This document shows, one piece after another, positions 3,867 to 32,247 of a DNA stretch of 56,957 bases. Below the pieces are notes generated by a model, which made no database searches, was not told the origin of the DNA, and saw only the letters and a list, made by a program, of their open reading frames with translations. Numbering within the stretch: position 1 is the stretch's first letter; the number at the start of each line of letters is the position of its first letter. Position numbers and translations under genes: made by a program. Origin of the DNA: Pseudomonadota bacterium (GTDB lineage: Bacteria > Pseudomonadota > Alphaproteobacteria > GCA-2731375); contig JAQBYC010000014.1 of assembly GCA_027623205.1 (NCBI GenBank), positions 1-56,957 on the forward strand. The letters are read 5' to 3'.

Positions 3867-4529
3867 TCACGCCAGTGCGCCAGAAGCCGCCAGAAGTTTC
3901 CGGATCGGGGCAAAGGAGCGCCGGTGCATTTCGGTCGGTCCCAGCCTGGCCAAAGCCGCCCGGTGTTCGGCGGTGCCATAGCCGGCATTGCGCTCCCAGC
4001 CGTAGCCCGGAAAGCATTCGGCCAGGGCCGTCATTTCACGGTCCCGGGTGACCTTGGCCACGATCGAGGCGGCGGCAATGGAAAGGCAGCGGGCATCGCC
4101 CTTGACCAGACATTCAACGCCGCAGGCGAGATTGCCGGTCGCGCGGCGGGGCAAATCCGGGGCGCGGTTGCCGTCCACCAGGGCGTGCCGGGGCGGCGTG
4201 GCCAGGTCCGCCACCGCACGGGCCATGGCCAGCATGGTGGCGGCCAGGATGTTGAGGCGGTCAATTTCCTCTACCCCGGCCCGGCCAACGCCGATCACCG
4301 CAACCTGGCCCAGGCTGTCAAACAGCTGCTCCCGGCGCGCCCTGGACAGGGTTTTGGAATCCGCCAGACCGGGCGGAATATGATCCGGGCGCAGGATCAC
4401 CGCCGCCGCCACCACCGGTCCGGCCCAGGGGCCCCGGCCTGCCTCGTCGATGCCGCAAACCGGGACCAGGCCGCGGGCCGCGGCGGCCGCCTCGTGGCCG
4501 TAGCCGGCCTTAATCCTTGGTTTTGTCAT
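3867..4529 (-). CDS. rnhB: Ribonuclease HII
   Basis: Cleaves the RNA strand of RNA-DNA hybrids and single ribonucleotides in DNA. From the ATG at 4529 the protein is 220 residues, the usual size. The acidic active site is visible as D28 and E29 in [15 protein letters not shown]119 in ALVDGNRAP and D145 in [24 protein letters not shown]. The C-terminal [19 protein letters not shown] and HRRSFAP motifs are also standard. The gene overlaps the end of the upstream antiporter gene by 20 bp, implying translational coupling; an ATG at 4538 is a second possible start. Confidence 0.94.
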
Positions 4530-5940
4530 CACCGTCATTGGCGGTGCCGTCGGGGCCGCCCGCTGGCGAACCGGCGTCTTCAAAGCGGGCGTCGCCGTCA
4601 GCCCCCGCATCTGCATCCGCGCTATCGGCCGCGGTGTTGTCGGCCATTATATCCTTGGCGGCGCGGTAACCCTTCTCTCCCATCCGCATGGAAAAGCGCA
4701 CGGAATATCTGCTCATGATCGCCACCGCCCGGGCTTCGGGCGCGAATATTCTTTGCAGATATTCCCGCAGGGTCTGAACATTGCTGCCGACCAGGCGTTC
4801 CAGCCGCCGGCTCAATATCAACCATAGGGGCGAGAGCATCAGACTCAAGGCAATGACGGACACCACGATGCGGCCGCCGGTGTCAAGGATCAGGCCGGCC
4901 CCAACCGCCGCCGCCACCAGGACAAACGAGAATTCACCGATCTGGCCGATGGAGACCCCGACAATCCAGGCGCTGGGCCATGGTTCCCGCAGCGCGCGCA
5001 GGATGGCGACGTTCATCATGGTCTTCAGCACCGTGACGACCAGTAGAATACTCATGACTTCCGCCAGATGTTCCCAGATGAAGCCAAGATCCAGCAACAG
5101 GCCGATGGAAACGAAAAAAATCATCAACAACACGCCCTGGATCGGCCGGGCCGCCGCCAACAACGGCACCCGCGCGGTTGAGTTGCCGATCCACAGGCCC
5201 GCCAAAAAGGCACCGTAGGCCGGCGACAACCCCACCAGGGCGGAAACCAGCGCCGCGCCAAAACAATACGCCAGGGCGGTGACCGCCGAGATTTCCACAT
5301 CGCCGTGCATGCTCCCCGTGAACGGCAAGCCCACCCGCGAGCGCCGGGTCAATACGATGATCATGGCGGCGAGCAGGCCCAACGCCAGGAACAGCTTCAG
5401 ATAGCCGCCCATGTCCATGCCGGTGCCCCCGGCCAGGCCGTCGACGATCAGCAGCATGGGCACGATGGCCAGATCCTGGGCGATCAACACGCCGATCGCC
5501 GTGCGCCCGATGGCGGTGCGCAACTCGCCGATATCTTCCAGCAGCTTGATCGCCACGGCGGTGCTGGACAGGGCAATGACAAAGCCCATCACGATGGCGG
5601 TCTCGACACCGCGGCCAAAGAAATGCATCACCACCAGCATGGCGCCGATGGACAGGGCGATCTGCGCGCCGGCCGCCAGCAGCGCCACACGCAGCACCCG
5701 GCGGAAAGCCCGCAGGGACAATTCCATGCCGATCACGAACAACAGCAGCAGCACGCCCAGTTCGGCCAGGGTTTCGATGGGCGCCCGGTTGGGAAACAGA
5801 TCAAACCCGGATGGGCCAAGGATCACACCGGCGACGATATAGCCGACAATTGCCGGCTGCCGCAGGCGCTGCAGCACCAGACCCAGGATCAGGGCGCTGG
5901 CCGCCAGCAGGGCGATTTCAAATAGGCCGTTGGTGTGCAT
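4510..5940 (-). CDS. CPA2-family monovalent cation:proton antiporter (KefB/YbaL-like)
   Basis: A 476-residue inner-membrane protein with about 12 hydrophobic segments across residues 5-385. The family signatures are visible: [17 protein letters not shown] near the start, [18 protein letters not shown], and [39 protein letters not shown] contains the Asp expected at the ion site. CPA2 proteins exchange K+ or Na+ for H+. The C-terminal RCK/TrkA-N domain of KefB/KefC is missing; instead the tail after about 430 is strongly acidic and Ala/Gly/Asp-rich, probably a disordered cytosolic end. The gene lies 7 bp downstream of a methyltransferase and overlaps rnhB. Ion specificity is unknown. Confidence 0.85.
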
Positions 5941-24438: not shown

Positions 24439-26103
24439 ATGGAACGCGAATCGATGGAAGTGGATGTGCTGATCGTCGGCGCCGGACCGGCGGGGCTGTC
24501 TGCAGCGATCCGGCTGATGCAAATGGCCGACGAGGCTGGCGTCGAGCTCTCGGTTTGCGTACTTGAAAAAGGTTCCGAAGTCGGTGCACATATCTTGTCG
24601 GGCGCGGTGATGGAGCCGCGGGCGCTGAGCGAGTTGATCCCTGATTGGGCTGAACGCGGCGCGCCTCTGAACGTTCCAGTGACAGACGAAAAGTTCATGT
24701 TTCTAACGGCCGCTAATTCGATTCCCCTGCCAAACCTCGTGTTGCCCAAGGCAACTCATAACAAGGGTAACTACATCATCTCGCTGGGCAACGTCTGCCG
24801 CTGGCTGGCAGAGCAGGCGGAGGCGATGGGAGTTGAGATTTTTCCGGGCTTTGCCGCCTCGGAGCTATTGTTTCATGACGACGGCCGGGTCAAGGGTGCG
24901 ATCACCGGGATCATGGGCATCAATGCACAGGGAGCGCAAAAGCCGACCTTTGAGGCGGGCATGGAACTACACGCGAAATACACTCTATTCGGCGAAGGTT
25001 GCCGGGGCTCGTTGTCGCAACAATTGCTGAAACGCTTTGAACTGGACAAGGATTGTCAGCCTCAGACATATGGTATCGGGCTGAAGGAACTTTGGGAAGT
25101 TCCCGACGAAGTGCACCGTGAAGGCTTGGTGATGCATACGGCCGGTTGGCCAATGGACAACGCCACCTATGGCGGATCATTCCTGTATCATCTGGATAAC
25201 AACCAAGTGGCCATCGGCTTCGTCATCGCCCTGGATTACCAGAATCCCTATTTGTCGCCGTTCGACGAGTTCCAACGCTACAAAACCCATCCCGACATCA
25301 GCAGCCACCTGAAAGGGGGCAAGCGTATCGCCTATGGCGCCAGGGCCTTGAACGAAGGCGGCTTGCAATCCATACCCGGCCTCGTGTTTCCCGGCGGCGC
25401 CCTGATCGGCTGTGGCGCCGGTTTTTTGAACGTGCCGAAAATCAAGGGCAGCCACAACGCCATCAAGACCGGCATGTTGGCGGCCGAAGCAGCCTTCGAG
25501 GCGATTCAAACAGCGAACGCCGCCGGTGAAGCGCTGCCCCGACCGGTGTTGGAAAGCTATCCGGCCGCGCTACGCGAATCCTGGGTCTGGCGGGAATTGA
25601 CTGCCGCCCGCAACTTCCGTCCGGCATTTGCCAAGTGGGGCCTGATTGGCGGCACGCTTTACAACGGTGTCGATCAGTTCCTTGGCGGCCATGTCGGCTG
25701 GACCTTGAACAATCCGCATCGAGATCACGAAAGCCTTAAATTAAAGGAACAATGCCAGACCATCGATTATCCCAAACCCGATGGAGTCTACAGTTTCGAC
25801 AAATTATCCTCGGTTTTTATTTCCAACACCAACCATGAAGAAGATCAGCCGGTGCATCTGCGTCTGGCCGATACAAACGTGCCGGTGGACCATAATCTGG
25901 CTCTTTATGATGCACCGGAACAGCGCTATTGTCCCGCCGGCGTTTACGAAATCCTGACTGATGACGATGGCGGAAATGCACGGCTGCAAATTAGCGCGCA
26001 GAATTGCCTGCATTGCAAAACCTGTGACATCAAGGATCCAACACAGAATATTACCTGGACAGTACCGGAGGGAACGGGTGGCCCGAATTATCCAAATATG
26101 TAG
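24439..26103 (+). CDS. Electron transfer flavoprotein-ubiquinone oxidoreductase
   Basis: Passes electrons from reduced ETF, loaded by acyl-CoA dehydrogenases, to ubiquinone at the inner membrane. The 554-residue protein begins MERESMEVDVLIVGAGPAGLSAAIRL, the FAD-binding fold. The middle has GLKELWEVPDEVHREGLVMHTAGWPMDNATYGGSFLYH and GCGAGFLNVPKIKGSHNAIKTGMLAAEAAFE. The C-terminus carries the single [4Fe-4S] cluster, with Cys in RYCPAGVYE and CLHCKTCDIKDPTQNITW. The ATG at 24439 matches the family; one at 24430 adds three residues. A TPR lipoprotein gene begins inside its last codons, implying co-translation. It fits the acyl-CoA genes elsewhere in the window. Confidence 0.95.
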   Translation: MERESMEVDVLIVGAGPAGLSAAIRLMQMADEAGVELSVCVLEKGSEVGAHILSGAVMEPRALSELIPDWAERGAPLNVPVTDEKFMFLTAANSIPLPNLVLPKATHNKGNYIISLGNVCRWLAEQAEAMGVEIFPGFAASELLFHDDGRVKGAITGIMGINAQGAQKPTFEAGMELHAKYTLFGEGCRGSLSQQLLKRFELDKDCQPQTYGIGLKELWEVPDEVHREGLVMHTAGWPMDNATYGGSFLYHLDNNQVAIGFVIALDYQNPYLSPFDEFQRYKTHPDISSHLKGGKRIAYGARALNEGGLQSIPGLVFPGGALIGCGAGFLNVPKIKGSHNAIKTGMLAAEAAFEAIQTANAAGEALPRPVLESYPAALRESWVWRELTAARNFRPAFAKWGLIGGTLYNGVDQFLGGHVGWTLNNPHRDHESLKLKEQCQTIDYPKPDGVYSFDKLSSVFISNTNHEEDQPVHLRLADTNVPVDHNLALYDAPEQRYCPAGVYEILTDDDGGNARLQISAQNCLHCKTCDIKDPTQNITWTVPEGTGGPNYPNM

Positions 26104-27865
26104 CCCGTTACCTCCCATTGCGGCATTGTTGGCGGCGGCCGCGCTAGTATTGCCGCTGTTGTCGGGTTGCGCCAATTCCAGGTCCGAGGAAAATGCTTCG
26201 GCGACGGCAGCAACTGCCCGGACACCGGCGCACAACTCACCGTTGGGGCATTATCTGTCGGCGCGGCTGGCCCGCAACGAACAGGATACGGCCCGTGCAG
26301 CGGACTTTTACAAAGTCGCACTTGCCGCCGATCCCGACAATCAGGTTCTGTTGCAAAAAACCATGGTTACGATGCTGGCCGAAGGGCGCGTACGGCCAGC
26401 CATCGAATTGGCGAAACGCCGGATCGTCCACCAGGATGATGCCGCAATGGCGCGATTGATATTGGCTACGGATGCCATTCGCACCGGCGATCCATCGACG
26501 GCACGCCGGCACCTGCTACGTGCATCGCGGGCGGATTACATGTCGTTGTTAGGGCCGATGCTGTTGGCCTGGGTAGAGGCCGGGGACGATCAATACAACA
26601 CGGCCATAAAGACGATTGATCAACTCAGCGGCCGGGCCGTCTTCACACCGTTTCGCGCCTATCATACCGCCCTCATCAGTGATTTTGCCGGTCATGACGA
26701 GGCCGCCGCGGCGGCCTTCGCGGAAACCCTGCAAAGCAACGCCCAGCGGGTCACCAGGGTAACCCAGCACTATGGCGGATTTTTGAGCCGTAGCGGCCGA
26801 CAGGATCAGGCCCTGGCGCTATTCGATGCCTTCCTGGCACAAAATCCCGGTAATCCGCTGATTGGCCATGCCCGCGACCAATTGCGCTTGGGCATGGCCA
26901 TACCACCGCCCATCAATTCAGTGGCCGAAGGCCTGGCAGAGGCCTTTTTATCGGCCGGCTTCGCCATTACCGGCGCGCGCGGGCGTGAAACAGCAAGGAT
27001 TTATTCCCATCTTGCCCTGCTTCTACGACCTGACCTCGACGCGGCACGCATGCTCCTGGCCGAAGTTCTAGAAGGCCAAGAACGGTTTGCAGACGCCATC
27101 GCGGTCTATGGGCAAATTGCGGAGAATTCTTCCTTTCATTGGAACGCCCGCATTCGCACAGCCGCCAACATGAATAGTCTGGACCGGATTGATGATACGA
27201 TCGCTTTGCTGCGCAGCATGGCAAAGGAACGTCCAGACGATACTTCGGCGCTCATTACGGTGGCTAGAATCTTACGGTCCCAAGACCGATTTGACGACGC
27301 GATCACTGCTTTTGCAGAGATTTTTGCGCGAATAGGCACCCTGGAACCGCAGCATTGGAGCCTCCTGTATGAACGGGGTATCGCCTTCGAGCGATCAAAA
27401 CGATGGGCCGCCGCTGAAGCGGACTTCCTGAAAGCGTTGGAATTCAGACCTGACGAGCCCAGGGTACTGAACTATTTAGGCTACTCCTGGATTGATCAGG
27501 GCCTCAATCTGAACCGTGCCCGCGGCATGATAGAAAAGGCTGTTTCGAAGCGGCCAAACGACGGCTACGTGGTGGATAGTCTGGGCTGGGCATATTATCG
27601 TCTGGGTCAATATGACGAAGCCGTCAAACATCTGGAGCGGGCGGTGGAGTTGCGGCCCCAGGACCCAATTATAAATGATCATCTGGGCGATGCCTATTGG
27701 CGCGCCGGACGTCGGCTTGAAGCGCGTTTCCAATGGAACCATGCGATTGCCCTTGGCGCCGAGGAAGAATTAGTTCCTGGTATCCGGGCCAAGCAAAGCA
27801 AAGGCCTGGGCCAACCCGAAGCGCTGGACTCGGACAAGAGAAAAAAAAGCGGAAACGGTGGCTGA
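26078..27865 (+). CDS. TPR-repeat lipoprotein
   Basis: About 595 residues starting at a GTG whose upstream GGAGGGAAC (26068-26076) is a good ribosome binding site. The N-terminus is a lipoprotein signal peptide: hydrophobic PPIAALLAAAALVLPLL then the lipobox LLSGC. At least ten tetratricopeptide units run through the rest, e.g. LGHYLSARLARNEQDTARAADFYKVALAADP and ERGIAFERSKRWAAAEADFLKALEFRPDEP. TPR proteins of this kind often act in outer-membrane or cell-envelope assembly; the partner is unknown. It overlaps ETF-QO by 26 bp and ispE by 8 bp. ETF-QO, TPR lipoprotein and ispE together form a conserved alphaproteobacterial run. Confidence 0.85.
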   Translation: MARIIQICSPLPPIAALLAAAALVLPLLSGCANSRSEENASATAATARTPAHNSPLGHYLSARLARNEQDTARAADFYKVALAADPDNQVLLQKTMVTMLAEGRVRPAIELAKRRIVHQDDAAMARLILATDAIRTGDPSTARRHLLRASRADYMSLLGPMLLAWVEAGDDQYNTAIKTIDQLSGRAVFTPFRAYHTALISDFAGHDEAAAAAFAETLQSNAQRVTRVTQHYGGFLSRSGRQDQALALFDAFLAQNPGNPLIGHARDQLRLGMAIPPPINSVAEGLAEAFLSAGFAITGARGRETARIYSHLALLLRPDLDAARMLLAEVLEGQERFADAIAVYGQIAENSSFHWNARIRTAANMNSLDRIDDTIALLRSMAKERPDDTSALITVARILRSQDRFDDAITAFAEIFARIGTLEPQHWSLLYERGIAFERSKRWAAAEADFLKALEFRPDEPRVLNYLGYSWIDQGLNLNRARGMIEKAVSKRPNDGYVVDSLGWAYYRLGQYDEAVKHLERAVELRPQDPIINDHLGDAYWRAGRRLEARFQWNHAIALGAEEELVPGIRAKQSKGLGQPEALDSDKRKKSGNGG

Positions 27866-28757
27866 ACCGCCTACATTGCTGGCGATGTCAGGCGATCGCA
27901 GGCACTGGTTGGCGCGCGCAAAAATTAATCTTTATCTGCATGTCAGCGGGAAGCGGGCGGACGGCTATCATTGCCTGGACAGCCTGATTGTTTTCGCCAG
28001 CCTGGGTGACACCATCGACGTCGAGGCAAGCGACGATTTGGCGCTGACCATAGAGGGACCCTTCGCCGCCGGACTGCCCGTGGATCAGAACAACCTGATA
28101 TTGCAGGCAGCGATGTCACTGGCACAGGCCGCGGGTATCCGGCCACGGGCCCGGATCAAATTGCGCAAGACTTTGCCGGTCGCAGCGGGCCTGGGTGGCG
28201 GCTCGGCTGACGCGGCGGCGACCCTGCTGGCATTGCGGGCGCTGTGGCGGTTGTCCATCGACGATGTCGTGCTGCATAGGCTGGCTGCCGGCCTGGGTGC
28301 CGATGTTCCGGTCTGCCTAACGGACCGGCCCAGCCTGGTTGGTGGTATCGGCCATGAAGTGCGGCCGGCGCCGCCGCTGCCGCCATTCGCATTGCTTTTG
28401 GTCAACCCTGGACAAGCCGTGTCGACGGCCGCGGCATTCGAAGGACTGCCGGATACCTTTAGGTCCAGCCGGCCTTGGCGGGAACACACCGATCGGACCG
28501 CGGCACTGGCGCAGGCATTGGCTGAACGGCGCAATGACCTGGAGCCCGCGGCCCGTCGACTGGCCCCCGTAATCGGCGAAGTCATCGAAGCCGTGGCGGC
28601 CCTGCCCCACTGCCGGCTGGCACGGATGTCCGGTTCCGGAGCGACCTGTTTTGGCCTTTTCGATAATTTGGCCCAGGCCCAATCGGCCGCCGGCACATTG
28701 GCCGCCGCTCGGACCAGTTGGTGGGTGCAAGCCAGCGGGATCGAGAGGCTGGGATAG
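27858..28757 (+). CDS. ispE: 4-diphosphocytidyl-2-C-methyl-D-erythritol kinase
   Basis: Phosphorylates CDP-ME in the MEP isoprenoid pathway. The 299-residue protein has the GHMP kinase signs: RAKINLYLHVSGKRADGYHCLDSLIVF, the ATP loop VAAGLGGGSADAAATLLALRAL, and the C-terminal ARMSGSGATCFGLF. A GTG at 27858 overlaps the TPR gene stop; the ATG at 27885 (MSGDRRHW) is a shorter alternative. Length is usual. The following hydrolase gene starts 14 bp after its stop. Confidence 0.93.
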   Translation: MAEPPTLLAMSGDRRHWLARAKINLYLHVSGKRADGYHCLDSLIVFASLGDTIDVEASDDLALTIEGPFAAGLPVDQNNLILQAAMSLAQAAGIRPRARIKLRKTLPVAAGLGGGSADAAATLLALRALWRLSIDDVVLHRLAAGLGADVPVCLTDRPSLVGGIGHEVRPAPPLPPFALLLVNPGQAVSTAAAFEGLPDTFRSSRPWREHTDRTAALAQALAERRNDLEPAARRLAPVIGEVIEAVAALPHCRLARMSGSGATCFGLFDNLAQAQSAAGTLAAARTSWWVQASGIERLG

Positions 28758-28771
28758 TGCGGCTGTGGGAG

Positions 28772-29611
28772 ATGGATTTCGGCGGGTTCCGAGTGCCGGG
28801 TATTTTTGTGCTGATCCTGCTGTTGCCAACTGCCTGTGAAAGCGAATCGTGGAACCGCAGCGAGCTGTTGAACCCCTCCATTCTGACCGAGGGCGACAGT
28901 GATATCGCCCGGACCTTTGACCAAGCAACGGTCCTTCTGCCCCGGCAGAAAGGCCTGGAGCCGCTGGCTGGAAAGTTATCCGACGAGGCCCTGCGCGATC
29001 ATCTTGTCAATTTACCCTCATCCGAGCATTATCCGACGATACTTTATATGCATGGCTGCAATGGCCAAGGGCGTCTGGGACCGTTGCAGGCCTTCGCCAA
29101 GGCCGGTTTCGCTGTTATCGCGCCTAACAGTTTCGCCAGGCGCTTTCGCCCTCTGCAATGCAGCCCATCGGAACGCACGGGCGGGCGCAATATCTTCGTC
29201 TTCGATTTCCGCCTGGTCGAAATCAGTTATGCGCTGCAACGCATGGCCGCGCTGCCCTGGGTCGACAACGACCGCCTGTATCTGATCGGCACCAGCGAAG
29301 GTGGCGTCGCAGCGGCCCTTTATCGGGGCGAAGAATTCAGAGCCCGCATCATTGCCCAATGGACCTGCCACGGGGCGCCCTTCATTCGCGGACTGGCGGC
29401 ACCGAAAGGGGAACCGGTATTGGCAATCGTGCGAAGCAACGACCCCTGGTACCAACCCGAGAGTACGGCCGGGCAGCTAGGTGATTGCGGCGCATTCTTC
29501 AAATCGCCAGAGCGCTCCCGCTCGCTGGTCATTGATAGCGGCGTGGCACATGATGTCTGGGGCCATTCCGGCGCGATGCAGGCCGCGCTGGATTTTCTGC
29601 GCCAGAAATGA
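28772..29611 (+). CDS. Exported dienelactone-hydrolase-like alpha/beta hydrolase
   Basis: About 279 residues with an N-terminal hydrophobic segment (VPGIFVLILLLPTACES) that is probably a signal peptide, perhaps lipoprotein, since TAC could be the lipobox with Cys at +1. The hydrolase core shows ILYMHGCNGQGRLGPLQAFAKAGFAVIAP for the oxyanion side and LIGTSEGGVAAALYRG, whose Ser in GTSEGG is the nucleophile. VLAIVRSNDPWYQ and DSGVAHDVWGHSGAMQAALDFL supply the other triad residues. The substrate is unknown. The ATG at 28772 is preferred; it lies 14 bp after ispE, and the two are probably one transcript. Confidence 0.75.
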   Translation: MDFGGFRVPGIFVLILLLPTACESESWNRSELLNPSILTEGDSDIARTFDQATVLLPRQKGLEPLAGKLSDEALRDHLVNLPSSEHYPTILYMHGCNGQGRLGPLQAFAKAGFAVIAPNSFARRFRPLQCSPSERTGGRNIFVFDFRLVEISYALQRMAALPWVDNDRLYLIGTSEGGVAAALYRGEEFRARIIAQWTCHGAPFIRGLAAPKGEPVLAIVRSNDPWYQPESTAGQLGDCGAFFKSPERSRSLVIDSGVAHDVWGHSGAMQAALDFLRQK

Positions 29612-29643: not shown

Positions 29644-30531
29644 TCAGTGCAGCGCATTGGCCTTGGACACGGCATCCGCCAAATCATTTTCCGACGGCCC
29701 CGCGCCCGGCGGATGTTTTCGGCCACCAATCGCCACCAAATGCGCGACCATGGCCCCGAGACCAGCATCGGCCTCGAGGCGCGCCGGCAAAACCGGTAAG
29801 TCATCCCGCACCTTGGCCATCCAAATGTCCGTCCACTCCGGCCGCATGAGCCGCGGCAACCAGGTGCGCTGCGAAAATCCGGCGATAGGAATTTGCCGCA
29901 AACGGCAAATTTGTGCCGTACCGGAATAGAGCGGCCCTGCCACCGGTCCGCCGGCGATGGCTTCAAACAAAATGTCATAGCGCCGCCGCCCATCGAACAC
30001 CTTGCTGCTGCCGTCGCATTCATTCCCATCGTGATAGCGCAATATCGCCTGGTACAACGCACTGAAGGGATCCTTGGTGCCGGGCAGAAGATGGGAGGGT
30101 ACCGGCTCACGCTTATCCTCGAACGCACTCGGCCGTGCCGTAAACCGCAATCCACTTGCGGCGGTGTAATTTATTAGAACCGAACGGGCCTCCCCGCCCC
30201 AGACACCAGACGCCGCATACTTCGTAGGCTTGACCGTACGATCGGCTATTTCACCCAGAACATCATTCTGGCGTTTGAAGCCAATCAGAAAATCCAGCAC
30301 TCCATGGCTGCGGAAGGCGCTATTGATTCTGTAGTGCTTGCCATCCGCTTCAACCGTCAGGTCAACAGTGCCCGCGAGAAACCCGCCCAGGTAAATATTA
30401 TAAGCCAACTCAATGCGTGGCCGCGGTTCAGAATCATTCTCCGCGCGGCCTGGTGATGCCATGCCGGCGGCGAACAATGCGCATATGATCAGATATACCG
30501 GCGCAATTTTTGCTTGTGAGATAAGGGTCAT
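29644..30531 (-). CDS. Exported DUF3108 domain protein
   Basis: A 295-residue protein with an N-terminal hydrophobic signal (KIAPVYLIICALFAAGMASPGRAEN). The DUF3108 fold is seen as IELAYNIYLGGFLAGTVDLTVEADGKHYRINSAFRSHGVLDFLIGFKRQNDVLGE, followed by PTKYAASGVWGG and VPSHLLPGTKDPFSALYQAILR. DUF3108 proteins are beta-rich periplasmic proteins of unknown role. The C-terminal 60 residues (ARLEADAGLGAMVAHLVAIGGRKHPPGAGP) are less conserved. The gene faces an AT-rich interval of 430 bp on its 5' side. Confidence 0.83.
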   Translation of the reverse strand: MTLISQAKIAPVYLIICALFAAGMASPGRAENDSEPRPRIELAYNIYLGGFLAGTVDLTVEADGKHYRINSAFRSHGVLDFLIGFKRQNDVLGEIADRTVKPTKYAASGVWGGEARSVLINYTAASGLRFTARPSAFEDKREPVPSHLLPGTKDPFSALYQAILRYHDGNECDGSSKVFDGRRRYDILFEAIAGGPVAGPLYSGTAQICRLRQIPIAGFSQRTWLPRLMRPEWTDIWMAKVRDDLPVLPARLEADAGLGAMVAHLVAIGGRKHPPGAGPSENDLADAVSKANALH

Positions 30532-30961
30532 CGTCTGGAATTGGGGTAAGAAAATTGGCGTTCTTGGTCAGTGCGAATTGAACACGGCAGGTGACTTAAT
30601 TAACCTTTATCATACTACAACATGATCAGTCTGATATTACCGTCCTGCCTGGGACTTATATCTTTGTTGCATTGTTGCCACAATATGTGATTTTCTTGCG
30701 GCATATATGGATTTGCACTTGCGAAGTTCCTGGAATATCCGTAACTTACTAGTGTTTTTTGAAAGTAGGATTTATTGGTTTCTGCCGAAGTTTGACATCT
30801 CACCAAACGAGCGGAATTGGGGAGTGAGTTAATGGTCTGAGGGTATGCGGCAGAATTTTTTTGTGTTATCAAATTTTTTATACCTTGTAGCCAATAGCTG
30901 TTGCTTGGTGTTGCCAAAATCGCTAAGTTTCGTACGTGCTTTTAATTGGAGGTCATCGGCA
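30532..30961. other. AT-rich intergenic region (430 bp)
   Basis: Base composition here is clearly more AT-rich than the flanks by eye, with several homopolymer runs (TTTTTTT near 30860). No reading frame with recognisable features was found, and one 100-codon minus-strand frame looks accidental. GGAGG at 30948-30952 is the ribosome binding site of the next gene. The region probably holds promoters for both divergent neighbours. No specific operator could be identified. Confidence 0.5.
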
Positions 30962-31267
30962 ATGGTCGTTAACAAGTTTCTAACCGCATTTGCATTGGCA
31001 ATCGCCCTAGCGGCAGCGCCGACATTCGCCTATGCGCAATCGCAAGCTGCTAAAACAGGCAGTGGCACGACGACGGGGGTAACGGCAGGTCAAGGCAAAG
31101 AGTCAGATAGTGGCGTCGGAGGCTTGAGTACTGGCGCGATTGTGGCTGGTATTGCTGTTGCTGCTGCGATTGCAATCGCTGTTGCCGCGTCGTCAGATAG
31201 CAACAACACAACTTCGACCAGCACCTCCACCTCCACCTCCACCTCCACCTCCACCGCTACAAACTAG
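30962..31267 (+). CDS. Small exported protein with hydrophobic helix and Ser/Thr repeat tail (YjbE-like architecture)
   Basis: 101 residues from an ATG with GGAGG nine bases upstream. A signal peptide (KFLTAFALAIALAAAPTFAYA, cut before QSQ) is followed by a Gly/Thr-rich spacer, a hydrophobic helix (GAIVAGIAVAAAIAIAVAASS), then SDSNN and a (Thr-Ser)n tail made of ACCTCC repeats. The order signal peptide, Ala/Gly helix, SDSNN and Thr tail recalls small exported proteins such as E. coli YjbE, but I cannot show homology. The gene stands alone between an AT-rich leader and a strong hairpin. Its GC content and codon use are lower than those of the neighbours. Confidence 0.65.
   Translation: MVVNKFLTAFALAIALAAAPTFAYAQSQAAKTGSGTTTGVTAGQGKESDSGVGGLSTGAIVAGIAVAAAIAIAVAASSDSNNTTSTSTSTSTSTSTSTATN
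31223..31252 (+). repeat. Five tandem ACCTCC repeats in the tail of the small exported protein
   Basis: ACCTCC is repeated five times without change and encodes Thr-Ser each time. The 6-bp unit means that gain or loss by slippage would lengthen or shorten the tail without shifting the frame. Confidence 0.85.
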
Positions 31268-31302
31268 CGGCGAGGTTTATTCGGCACCGAATTTGTACTA
31301 AT

Positions 31303-31336
31303 GGCAGGCGATCCGCTGCTCGGCGGATCGCCTGCC
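31303..31336 (+). terminator. Perfect 14-bp hairpin, possible terminator
   Basis: GGCAGGCGATCCGC at 31303-31316 pairs perfectly with GCGGATCGCCTGCC at 31323-31336 around a 6-base loop. It lies 35 bp after the stop of the small exported protein. Only a short T run (GCTGTTT) follows, so it is a weak intrinsic terminator but a strong 3'-end hairpin. Confidence 0.55.
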
Positions 31337-31665
31337 GCTGTTTGGGCTGCCGATTTATCTCAGCGTAAGTCCAGCGCGTTTTTGTACGATTCTGGATCGC
31401 TTGTGCCTGTCTTGAGTATCGCGCGGATTCTTCGATCCATTAGCTACGGACCTGATACTCGGGTTATGAGGCGCCCCGTTTGCGAAACAGCCAAACCATT
31501 TAGCGAATCGCCGAGATTGACGAATGGCCTTCGGCATCTGTCCGATCAGACCGCCGAGACCCCTGCCTTTTCGCGGGAGTGGGGCAAAACCATGCCGTAA
31601 TGATAATGATGGGGAGGCGTCGCGACGGCTTCCTATCATCGCAGCATGGTATAAGATGCCGGCTC
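31337..31665. other. Intergenic region before the thioesterase gene (329 bp)
   Basis: I see no supported gene, RNA or promoter in this stretch. A CCCACTCCCGCGAAAAGGCAGGGG-like segment (minus strand, near 31560) looks like the low-complexity spacer DNA common between alphaproteobacterial genes. Confidence 0.35.
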
Positions 31666-32247
31666 ATGACACAGAACGACACTCGAAGCCCGGCACAGAA
31701 CCCTGGCAGCGCCACGCATCCCATGCATCGTTTGCATATTCCCCTGCGTCTCGACCTGGACATTGTGCCGCCGGCACCACTGCACATTCACCGGGCGACG
31801 GTATTGCCGGAATGGATCGACTATAATGGGCATCTGAACATGGCCTATTATGTCCTGATGTTCGACAATGCCACGGATCGATTCTTCGACCTCATCGATC
31901 TTGGCGTTGACTATGTGGAACGGTGCAAGCATTCCGCCTTCGTTCTGGAAACCCATGTCACCTATCAAAAAGAAGTGGGGTTGGGCGATCACTTGCGATT
32001 TACCTTGCAGTTGATCGACGCGGACGAAAAGCGCCTGCACTATTATTTCGAGATGTATCACGAGGAACAGGGATTTCGGGCCGCCACTTCCGAACAGGTC
32101 GCGCTGCATGTGGACCTTGACGCACGGCAGTCAGCACCCTTTCCAGAACCTATGAAGCACCGAATTAGTTCCATCCTGATGGCGCATGCGGACTTGCCCC
32201 AGCCTGACGGCATCGGCCGCTCCATCTCCCTTCGCGCCAGGAGTTGA
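31666..32247 (+). CDS. 4HBT-family acyl-CoA thioesterase
   Basis: About 193 residues with an acyl-CoA thioester hydrolase hotdog domain: VLPEWIDYNGHLNMAYYVLMFDNATDRFFDLIDLG, with the DYNGHxN motif that holds the catalytic Asp. It is followed by ETHVTYQKEVGLGDHLRFTLQLIDADEKRLHYYFEMYH. These enzymes release free acids from CoA esters; the family also includes carnitine-pathway thioesterases. The ATG at 31666 is the likely start, although an ATG at 31723 (MHRLHIPLR) would also keep the whole domain. The ClC gene starts 8 bp after its stop, so the two are probably co-transcribed. Confidence 0.8.
   Translation: MTQNDTRSPAQNPGSATHPMHRLHIPLRLDLDIVPPAPLHIHRATVLPEWIDYNGHLNMAYYVLMFDNATDRFFDLIDLGVDYVERCKHSAFVLETHVTYQKEVGLGDHLRFTLQLIDADEKRLHYYFEMYHEEQGFRAATSEQVALHVDLDARQSAPFPEPMKHRISSILMAHADLPQPDGIGRSISLRARS

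Follow-up and report, generated by a model that had tools for sequence, protein, structure and literature searches.

A small gene in the 56,957-nucleotide stretch of alphaproteobacterial DNA analysed here (the window) is probably the alphaproteobacterial counterpart of gfcA/yjbE of E. coli, parted from its capsule-export partners, and its tail probably plays a role in the envelope. Because orthologues stand beside yjbF, an SLBB/GfcC gene and yjbH in other families and in one relative (G014), the gene is the positional counterpart of yjbE/gfcA. Among the components of the gfc/yjb capsule-export sets, GfcA/YjbE is the one about which least is known. PMC11494523 calls GfcA and GfcD entirely uncharacterized, whereas passages of PMC8592465 describe gfcA as 30% Thr and as possibly encoding a 101-residue inner-membrane or secreted protein, and suggest that GfcA might be O-antigen-modified and directed to GfcD. 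According to part of PMC9603273, yjbEFGH is paralogous to gfcABCD. PMC8117528 reports E. coli K-12 mutants that retain colanic acid on the cell through an unknown anchor, with some of the mutations located between yjbE and yjbF or within yjbF. In the open-licence full texts, we found no description of the small-protein family, or of the FecR tail presented below, in Alphaproteobacteria.

A small exported protein at a conserved junction

The locus comprises the following features, with positions given in the window.

25961-27865, plus strand: TPR gene at the left edge of the junction (TPR repeats recognized in the sequence itself; synteny)
27858-28757, plus strand: ispE-like gene of the junction (named by recognition; synteny)
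28718-29611, plus strand: alpha/beta hydrolase-like gene of the junction, start uncertain (sub-threshold Pfam matches only; synteny)
29644-30531, minus strand: DUF3108 gene, divergent conserved neighbour (PF11306, 1.9e-15; synteny)
30532-30961, no strand: AT-rich intergenic stretch separating the divergent DUF3108 and small genes (composition, ORFs)
30664-30699, plus strand: best-conserved block of the intergenic region, with the dyad ATTGT-TGCC-ACAAT at 30671-30684 (8-genome alignment)
30948-30952, plus strand: Shine-Dalgarno GGAGG (conserved in 8/8 aligned genomes)
30962-31267, plus strand: gene for the GfcA/YjbE-like exported protein, 101 residues (ORF, orthologues, counterpart beside yjbF elsewhere)
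30962-31036, plus strand: signal peptide, residues 1-25, likely cut between AYA and Q (by eye; conserved in alignment A1)
31034-31093, plus strand: conserved motif AQSQAAKTGSGTTTGVTAGQ directly after the signal peptide (alignments A1 and A2)
31133-31189, plus strand: hydrophobic helix rich in Ala (residues 58-76), forming the first half of a module also present on FecR-domain proteins (hydropathy)
31190-31264, plus strand: tail of Asp/Asn and then Ser/Thr (residues 77-101), forming the second half of that module
31222-31255, plus strand: CACCTC repeat, 5.7 copies, encoding Ser-Thr pairs (repeat search)
31303-31336, plus strand: transcription terminator hairpin, then GCTGTTT (fold, covariation)
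31579-32247, plus strand: 4HBT_2 thioesterase, right neighbour where other families have yjbF (Pfam, synteny)

The protein has the architecture of GfcA/YjbE-type proteins, namely a signal peptide, one hydrophobic helix and a Ser/Thr-rich C-terminus within about 80-120 residues. The Ala-rich segment has a mean hydropathy of 2.52, the last 25 residues are 80% Ser/Thr, and past the helix the only charged residue is one D. Its predicted structure is a low-confidence model (mean pLDDT of 50.6; helices at 3-17, 37-44 and 57-77), too poor for a fold search, and Pfam and NCBIfam gave no match apart from sub-threshold chance hits. A reading of the DNA made from sequence only had already described the 430-bp AT-rich region, the exported 101-residue protein with its Ala-rich helix, ACCTCC repeat and Ser/Thr tail, and the 14-bp hairpin, and all of these descriptions proved right. 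The copies of the repeat match each other at 100%, forming a pure hexamer repeat. As its unit is 6 bp, the frame cannot shift and only the length of the tail varies, which rules out phase variation through this repeat.

The gene is conserved among the relatives of the window's genome. The family of this genome (G000), which is its whole order in our collection, comprises 15 genomes, one per species; its named relatives are five metagenome-assembled Alphaproteobacteria/Rhodospirillaceae. A match to the small protein with E ≤ 0.01 was found in 13/15 of these genomes. The homologue search returned full-length orthologues from eight other family genomes (E ≤ 2e-26) and from G014 (9e-15), bringing the full small protein to 10/15 genomes (G000, G001, G002, G003, G005, G007, G008, G009, G012 and G014), with two copies in tandem in G014. 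G013 gave a weak match lacking the tail, and no match was found in G010 and G011, which are 81-84% complete.

The junction at which the gene resides is conserved as well. The order TPR-ispE-hydrolase-DUF3108-small gene is retained at 8/10 family loci; the remaining two are the locus of G009, a short contig with DUF3108 only, and that of G014, which has TPR-ispE-hydrolase without DUF3108. The right flank consists of the thioesterase and a ClC gene at 6/10 loci (the window, G001, G002, G005, G008 and G009), differs in G003 and G007, and is cut by the end of the contig in G012. The right flank in G014 is yjbF (PF11102, 3.9e-42), an SLBB/Poly_export gene and yjbH (PF06082, 7.7e-209). The divergent DUF3108 gene, at 29644-30531 in the window, stays at the junction in several families.

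The small gene and its capsule-export partners

We searched 385 sampled genomes of the class with profile A1, which was built from 11 family orthologues (11 rows), and obtained matches in 23 of them, 18 being non-family genomes that span 11 families. These 18 genomes supplied 20 loci. YjbF adjoins the small gene on the opposite strand at 11/20 (L112, L114-L118, L121, L122, L125, L129 and L131), with a gap of 6-252 nt between the two genes, and SLBB/GfcC and YjbH follow where the contig reaches. The ispE-hydrolase left flank of the window recurs at 8/11 linked loci (all except L122, L125 and L131), most of these eight also having TPR and/or DUF3108. At the other nine (L113, L119, L120, L123, L124, L126-L128 and L130), YjbF was not seen within the fetched stretch; two of these are extra copies from genomes whose other copy is linked, L123 encodes a FecR protein with the tail, and L126 and L127 lie at contig ends. 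YjbF is absent from four genomes with a small-gene match (G039, G043, G058 and G206). YjbF (PF11102) occurs in 32/385 genomes and in 28/380 non-family genomes, and the small gene in 18/380, of which 14 also have YjbF (Fisher p = 9e-15, uncorrected for kinship).

A scan for the architecture itself, i.e., an ORF with signal peptide, helix and Ser/Thr tail, was applied to 26 non-family YjbF loci from the 28 genomes. Such an ORF was present at 16/26, several without sequence likeness to the window protein, and the scan also recovered YjbE and GfcA at both E. coli loci. Over 723 kb of loci it made 35 hits, about 4 of them stray as judged by reading. Tandem pairs of small tailed genes precede yjbF in L029 (9140-9842), L116 (7933-8590) and L117 (8958-9653); within such a pair the helix of the second copy differs, and its end is often TSTR or TNTR.

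The resemblance to the E. coli proteins lies in architecture and position. GfcA (YmcD) is the product of the gene that opens the group 4 capsule operon gfcABCDE-etp-etk; it likewise has 101 residues, a signal peptide, a hydrophobic segment and a C-terminus of D/N followed by Ser/Thr, and gfcA lies beside gfcB. YjbE, from the first gene of yjbEFGH, has the same architecture and the same position before yjbF. However, GfcA has no significant sequence match to the alphaproteobacterial small protein and, unlike it, carries a long Thr-rich part before the helix. The alphaproteobacterial yjbF is also on the strand opposite the small gene, in contrast to the E. coli gfc operon, and the window gene is away from the operon. 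The alphaproteobacterial profile scored 19.1 bits against YjbE, above 1000/1000 local shuffles, and 6.1 bits against GfcA, a score that 135/1000 shuffles equalled or exceeded; hhalign gave only short weak matches. The YjbE model PF11106 matched E. coli YjbE alone among 26 proteins of alignment A2, with 0/24 of the alphaproteobacterial proteins, and the window protein gave nothing against it at E ≤ 1. Hence, the earlier description of the protein as YjbE-like holds for its architecture and for the position of its relatives, beside yjbF in G014 and at 11/20 non-family loci, but finds no match in any YjbE sequence model.

In the window's genome, the small gene is displaced from gfcB/yjbF, beside which it stands in G014 and at the linked non-family loci. 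The sequence-only reading had noted that no polysaccharide genes are near, and this is true of the window, which has no YjbF, SLBB or YjbH and in which none of 20 further large ORFs is a polysaccharide gene by Pfam. The reason is that this genome carries the partners yjbF, SLBB-GfcC and yjbH on contigs other than the window's. PF11102, PF06251 and PF06082, representing homologues of GfcB, GfcC and GfcD, are all present: contig C17 carries YjbF (4203-4766), SLBB-GfcC and the first part of YjbH, the rest of which is on C41, and the neighbours of this YjbF region include glycosyltransferase-like and Wzz-like genes. The architecture scan found no ORF beside the YjbF loci of G000, G002 and G003, as expected if the window gene was left behind. 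Most simply, the ancestral order was TPR-ispE-hydrolase-(DUF3108)-small gene-yjbF-SLBB/GfcC-yjbH, and its right part moved elsewhere in the window's genus. We considered whether the small-gene and yjbF contigs of G012 are neighbours split by assembly and rejected this, as the other side of yjbF holds different genes.

The bond between the small gene and the export set does not appear tight. The small gene occurs in G001 and G005 (completeness of 96 and 98%) in the absence of YjbF and YjbH, YjbH occurs in G004 and G006, which lack the small gene, and both patterns speak against such a bond. The alphaproteobacterial relatives form an alignable family that offers natural cases of a small gene parted from, or outliving, its operon. 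The SLBB ORFs (L062 982-3948 and others) encode a Wza-like protein with a C-terminal GfcC domain (PF06251), a fusion of gfcC and gfcE, which are separate genes in E. coli. Two similar flagellin-like ORFs, named from their sequence, lie one after the other near the end of yjbH on C41 of the window's genome (L063 6430-8669).

A helix and tail shared with FecR-domain proteins

The helix and tail of the small protein recur on a second exported protein. A FecR-domain protein ending in the same module was found in G000, G002, G003, G004, G005 and G006, and a tail-only profile added one in G012, resulting in 7/15 family genomes. Per genome, the tail is carried by one small protein and no more than one FecR-domain protein. 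The FecR protein of G013 has a tail less alike. Outside the family, G039 and G206 also carry tailed FecR proteins, and G139 has a less similar one; this search covered 37 genomes, of which 30 loci were read. In G003, an epimerase-family gene flanks the FecR gene on either side, and Polysacc_synt_2 and DegT-type genes are close by; its counterparts in G000 and G002 do not have polysaccharide genes as neighbours. Tailed FecR-domain proteins with a Pro-rich linker were noted in L031 (9363-10178, contig C51 of G003) and in the relatives L030, L032, L033 and L193.

The tails of the two proteins tend to match within a genome, a tendency supported by statistics on few genomes. Using tail ends set by hand in the five family genomes with both proteins (G000, G002, G003, G005 and G012), the true pairing ranked 1 of 120 by both global and local scoring; with four genomes, before the FecR protein of G012 was found, it had ranked 1 of 24. 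The own-genome scores of G002 (0.92), G003 (1.00), G005 (0.86) and G012 (0.83) are each the best of their row, whereas that of the window's genome (0.49) is tied lowest of its row, the two tails there being unmatched.

Two explanations of this likeness can be compared at the codon level. The tails could be alike owing to slippage in low-complexity Ser/Thr sequence with occasional gene conversion, the tail being a passive spacer that nothing recognizes. The pure hexamer repeat of the window tail and the mismatch between the two tails of the window's genome fit this explanation, and in G003 identical residues use the same codon at 15/23 positions against 7.7 expected, an excess indicating that DNA was copied there. 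Codon identity is, however, near expectation in G002 (7/18 vs 6.0), G005 (9/19 vs 5.9) and G012 (5/20 vs 6.3). Furthermore, the small protein of G298 (L114 7781-8134, minus strand) and the FecR protein of G206 (L199 173-1060), from two species of one genus, share helix and tail with 66% identity over 74 residues, including the common end TVDPCPSSTCG. This end is non-repetitive and has two Cys, and the 25 gap-free identical residues of the pair have only 5 identical codons. We take the likeness of this pair to be kept at the protein level, which would point to one partner reading both tails. We thus regard the passive-spacer explanation as doubtful.

Alternatively, helix and tail might be an assembly module, with the small protein as a membrane partner of the FecR-domain protein, their small-residue helices packing against each other and the link to capsule being merely historical. 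The presence of one small and at most one FecR-domain tail carrier per genome and the matching of tails within genomes would suit such pairing. The small gene also persists without YjbF and YjbH in G001 and G005, the latter having a FecR partner. On the other hand, only 7/15 genomes have the tailed FecR protein, G004 and G006 have it alone, and, among the 10 genomes that have the small gene, about 5-6 lack a partner, either truly or by assembly gaps (G001, G007, G008, G009 and G014). The likeness moreover runs past the helix into the tail. We consider this explanation, too, rather unlikely.

In the reading we prefer, that of a displaced GfcA/YjbE counterpart, the small protein would be exported by Sec, the Ala-rich helix would hold it in the envelope, and the exposed Ser/Thr tail would serve the export or attachment of surface polysaccharide. 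The tail would most likely be a joining site for a glycan or a common envelope partner, and the helix-and-tail module of the FecR-domain protein might be read by that same partner, in which case the two tails would tend to match within a lineage. On this reading, the tail would be a lineage-specific tag and may act as a glycan acceptor. If the single helix acts as a stop-transfer segment, the tail would lie in the cytoplasm, which counts against its being an acceptor. The broader idea that helix and tail constitute a portable, lineage-specific C-terminal tag of Alphaproteobacteria, borne by the GfcA-like protein and the FecR-domain protein, matched within each lineage by selection at the protein level and recognized by one shared envelope reader, is possible, and we put it forward tentatively.

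PEP-CTERM/exosortase systems provide a parallel: a short C-terminal domain with a hydrophobic stretch is found on otherwise unrelated exported proteins and is tied to polysaccharide genes. Similarly, the small protein and the FecR-domain protein are unrelated exported proteins with a shared C-terminal module. The module described here differs in having neither a PEP motif nor a basic end in alignment A5, in its Ser/Thr-rich tail, and in occurring on only two kinds of protein per genome. If the tag reading is true, group 4-type polysaccharide might be linked to protein through this tag, and a shared envelope reader, if it exists, would be a so far undescribed machine that transfers glycans or provides an anchor. 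Together with the alignable family and the natural cases of separation, a further tail-bearing protein makes the function of GfcA, and the question of a Ser/Thr glycan acceptor, directly testable.

The AT-rich upstream region and the terminator

The region at 30532-30961 has 40.7% G+C over 430 bp, compared with 61.2% for the window. It is the AT-richest stretch of that length in the window, the next lowest elsewhere having 48.8% G+C. The DUF3108 gene, on the minus strand, has its start at 30531, and the 430 bp therefore sit between two divergent genes. The sequence-only reading had seen here a hint of transfer or of an unusually long regulatory leader. Although the base composition would suit either, both are very improbable, because in every family genome that has the gene on a contig covering the flanks, the gene lies with its left neighbours at the TPR-ispE-hydrolase-DUF3108 junction, the 450 bp upstream have 38-42% G+C in 8/8 genus members, the RNA folds no better than shuffles (z = +1.6), the covariation in the consensus fold is -0.01 kcal/mol, i.e., none, and all five matches of an Rfam scan are under the gathering score. 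On the last three results we reject an RNA leader or riboswitch; the microRNA and snoRNA names from Rfam are chance hits to the hairpin and to AT-rich DNA.

Instead, the region is a divergent intergenic one that carries a conserved DNA block and probably holds promoters for both genes. A scan of 30300-31700 for sigma-70-like promoters gave 0 sites, so the putative promoters are placed from conservation only. The core of the block at 30664-30699 occurs once in the genome in a scan allowing up to three mismatches, and a role as a regulon site is disfavoured by this single match. Upstream of the block in several genus members is TTAATTAACC, at 30615-30640 in the window, which we take to recall a CtrA half site.

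Downstream of the gene, the arms at 31303-31316 and 31323-31336 form 14 perfect pairs around a 6-nt loop, and the segment 31268-31360 folds with z = -5.0. A terminator scan requiring 5 T in 8 did not call the hairpin, its GCTGTTT tail being weak. The hairpin was found, with differing letters, in nine relatives of the G000 to G012 type, with 0 shuffles as stable; that of G014 is weak (15/100 shuffles). Among eight genus members, 14/19 hairpin pairs show double changes and 97.3% of cells pair, a level reached by 0/500 shuffles. As the hairpin is followed by GCTGTTT or a similar stretch, we call it a covarying intrinsic terminator, at which the transcript of the small gene would end.
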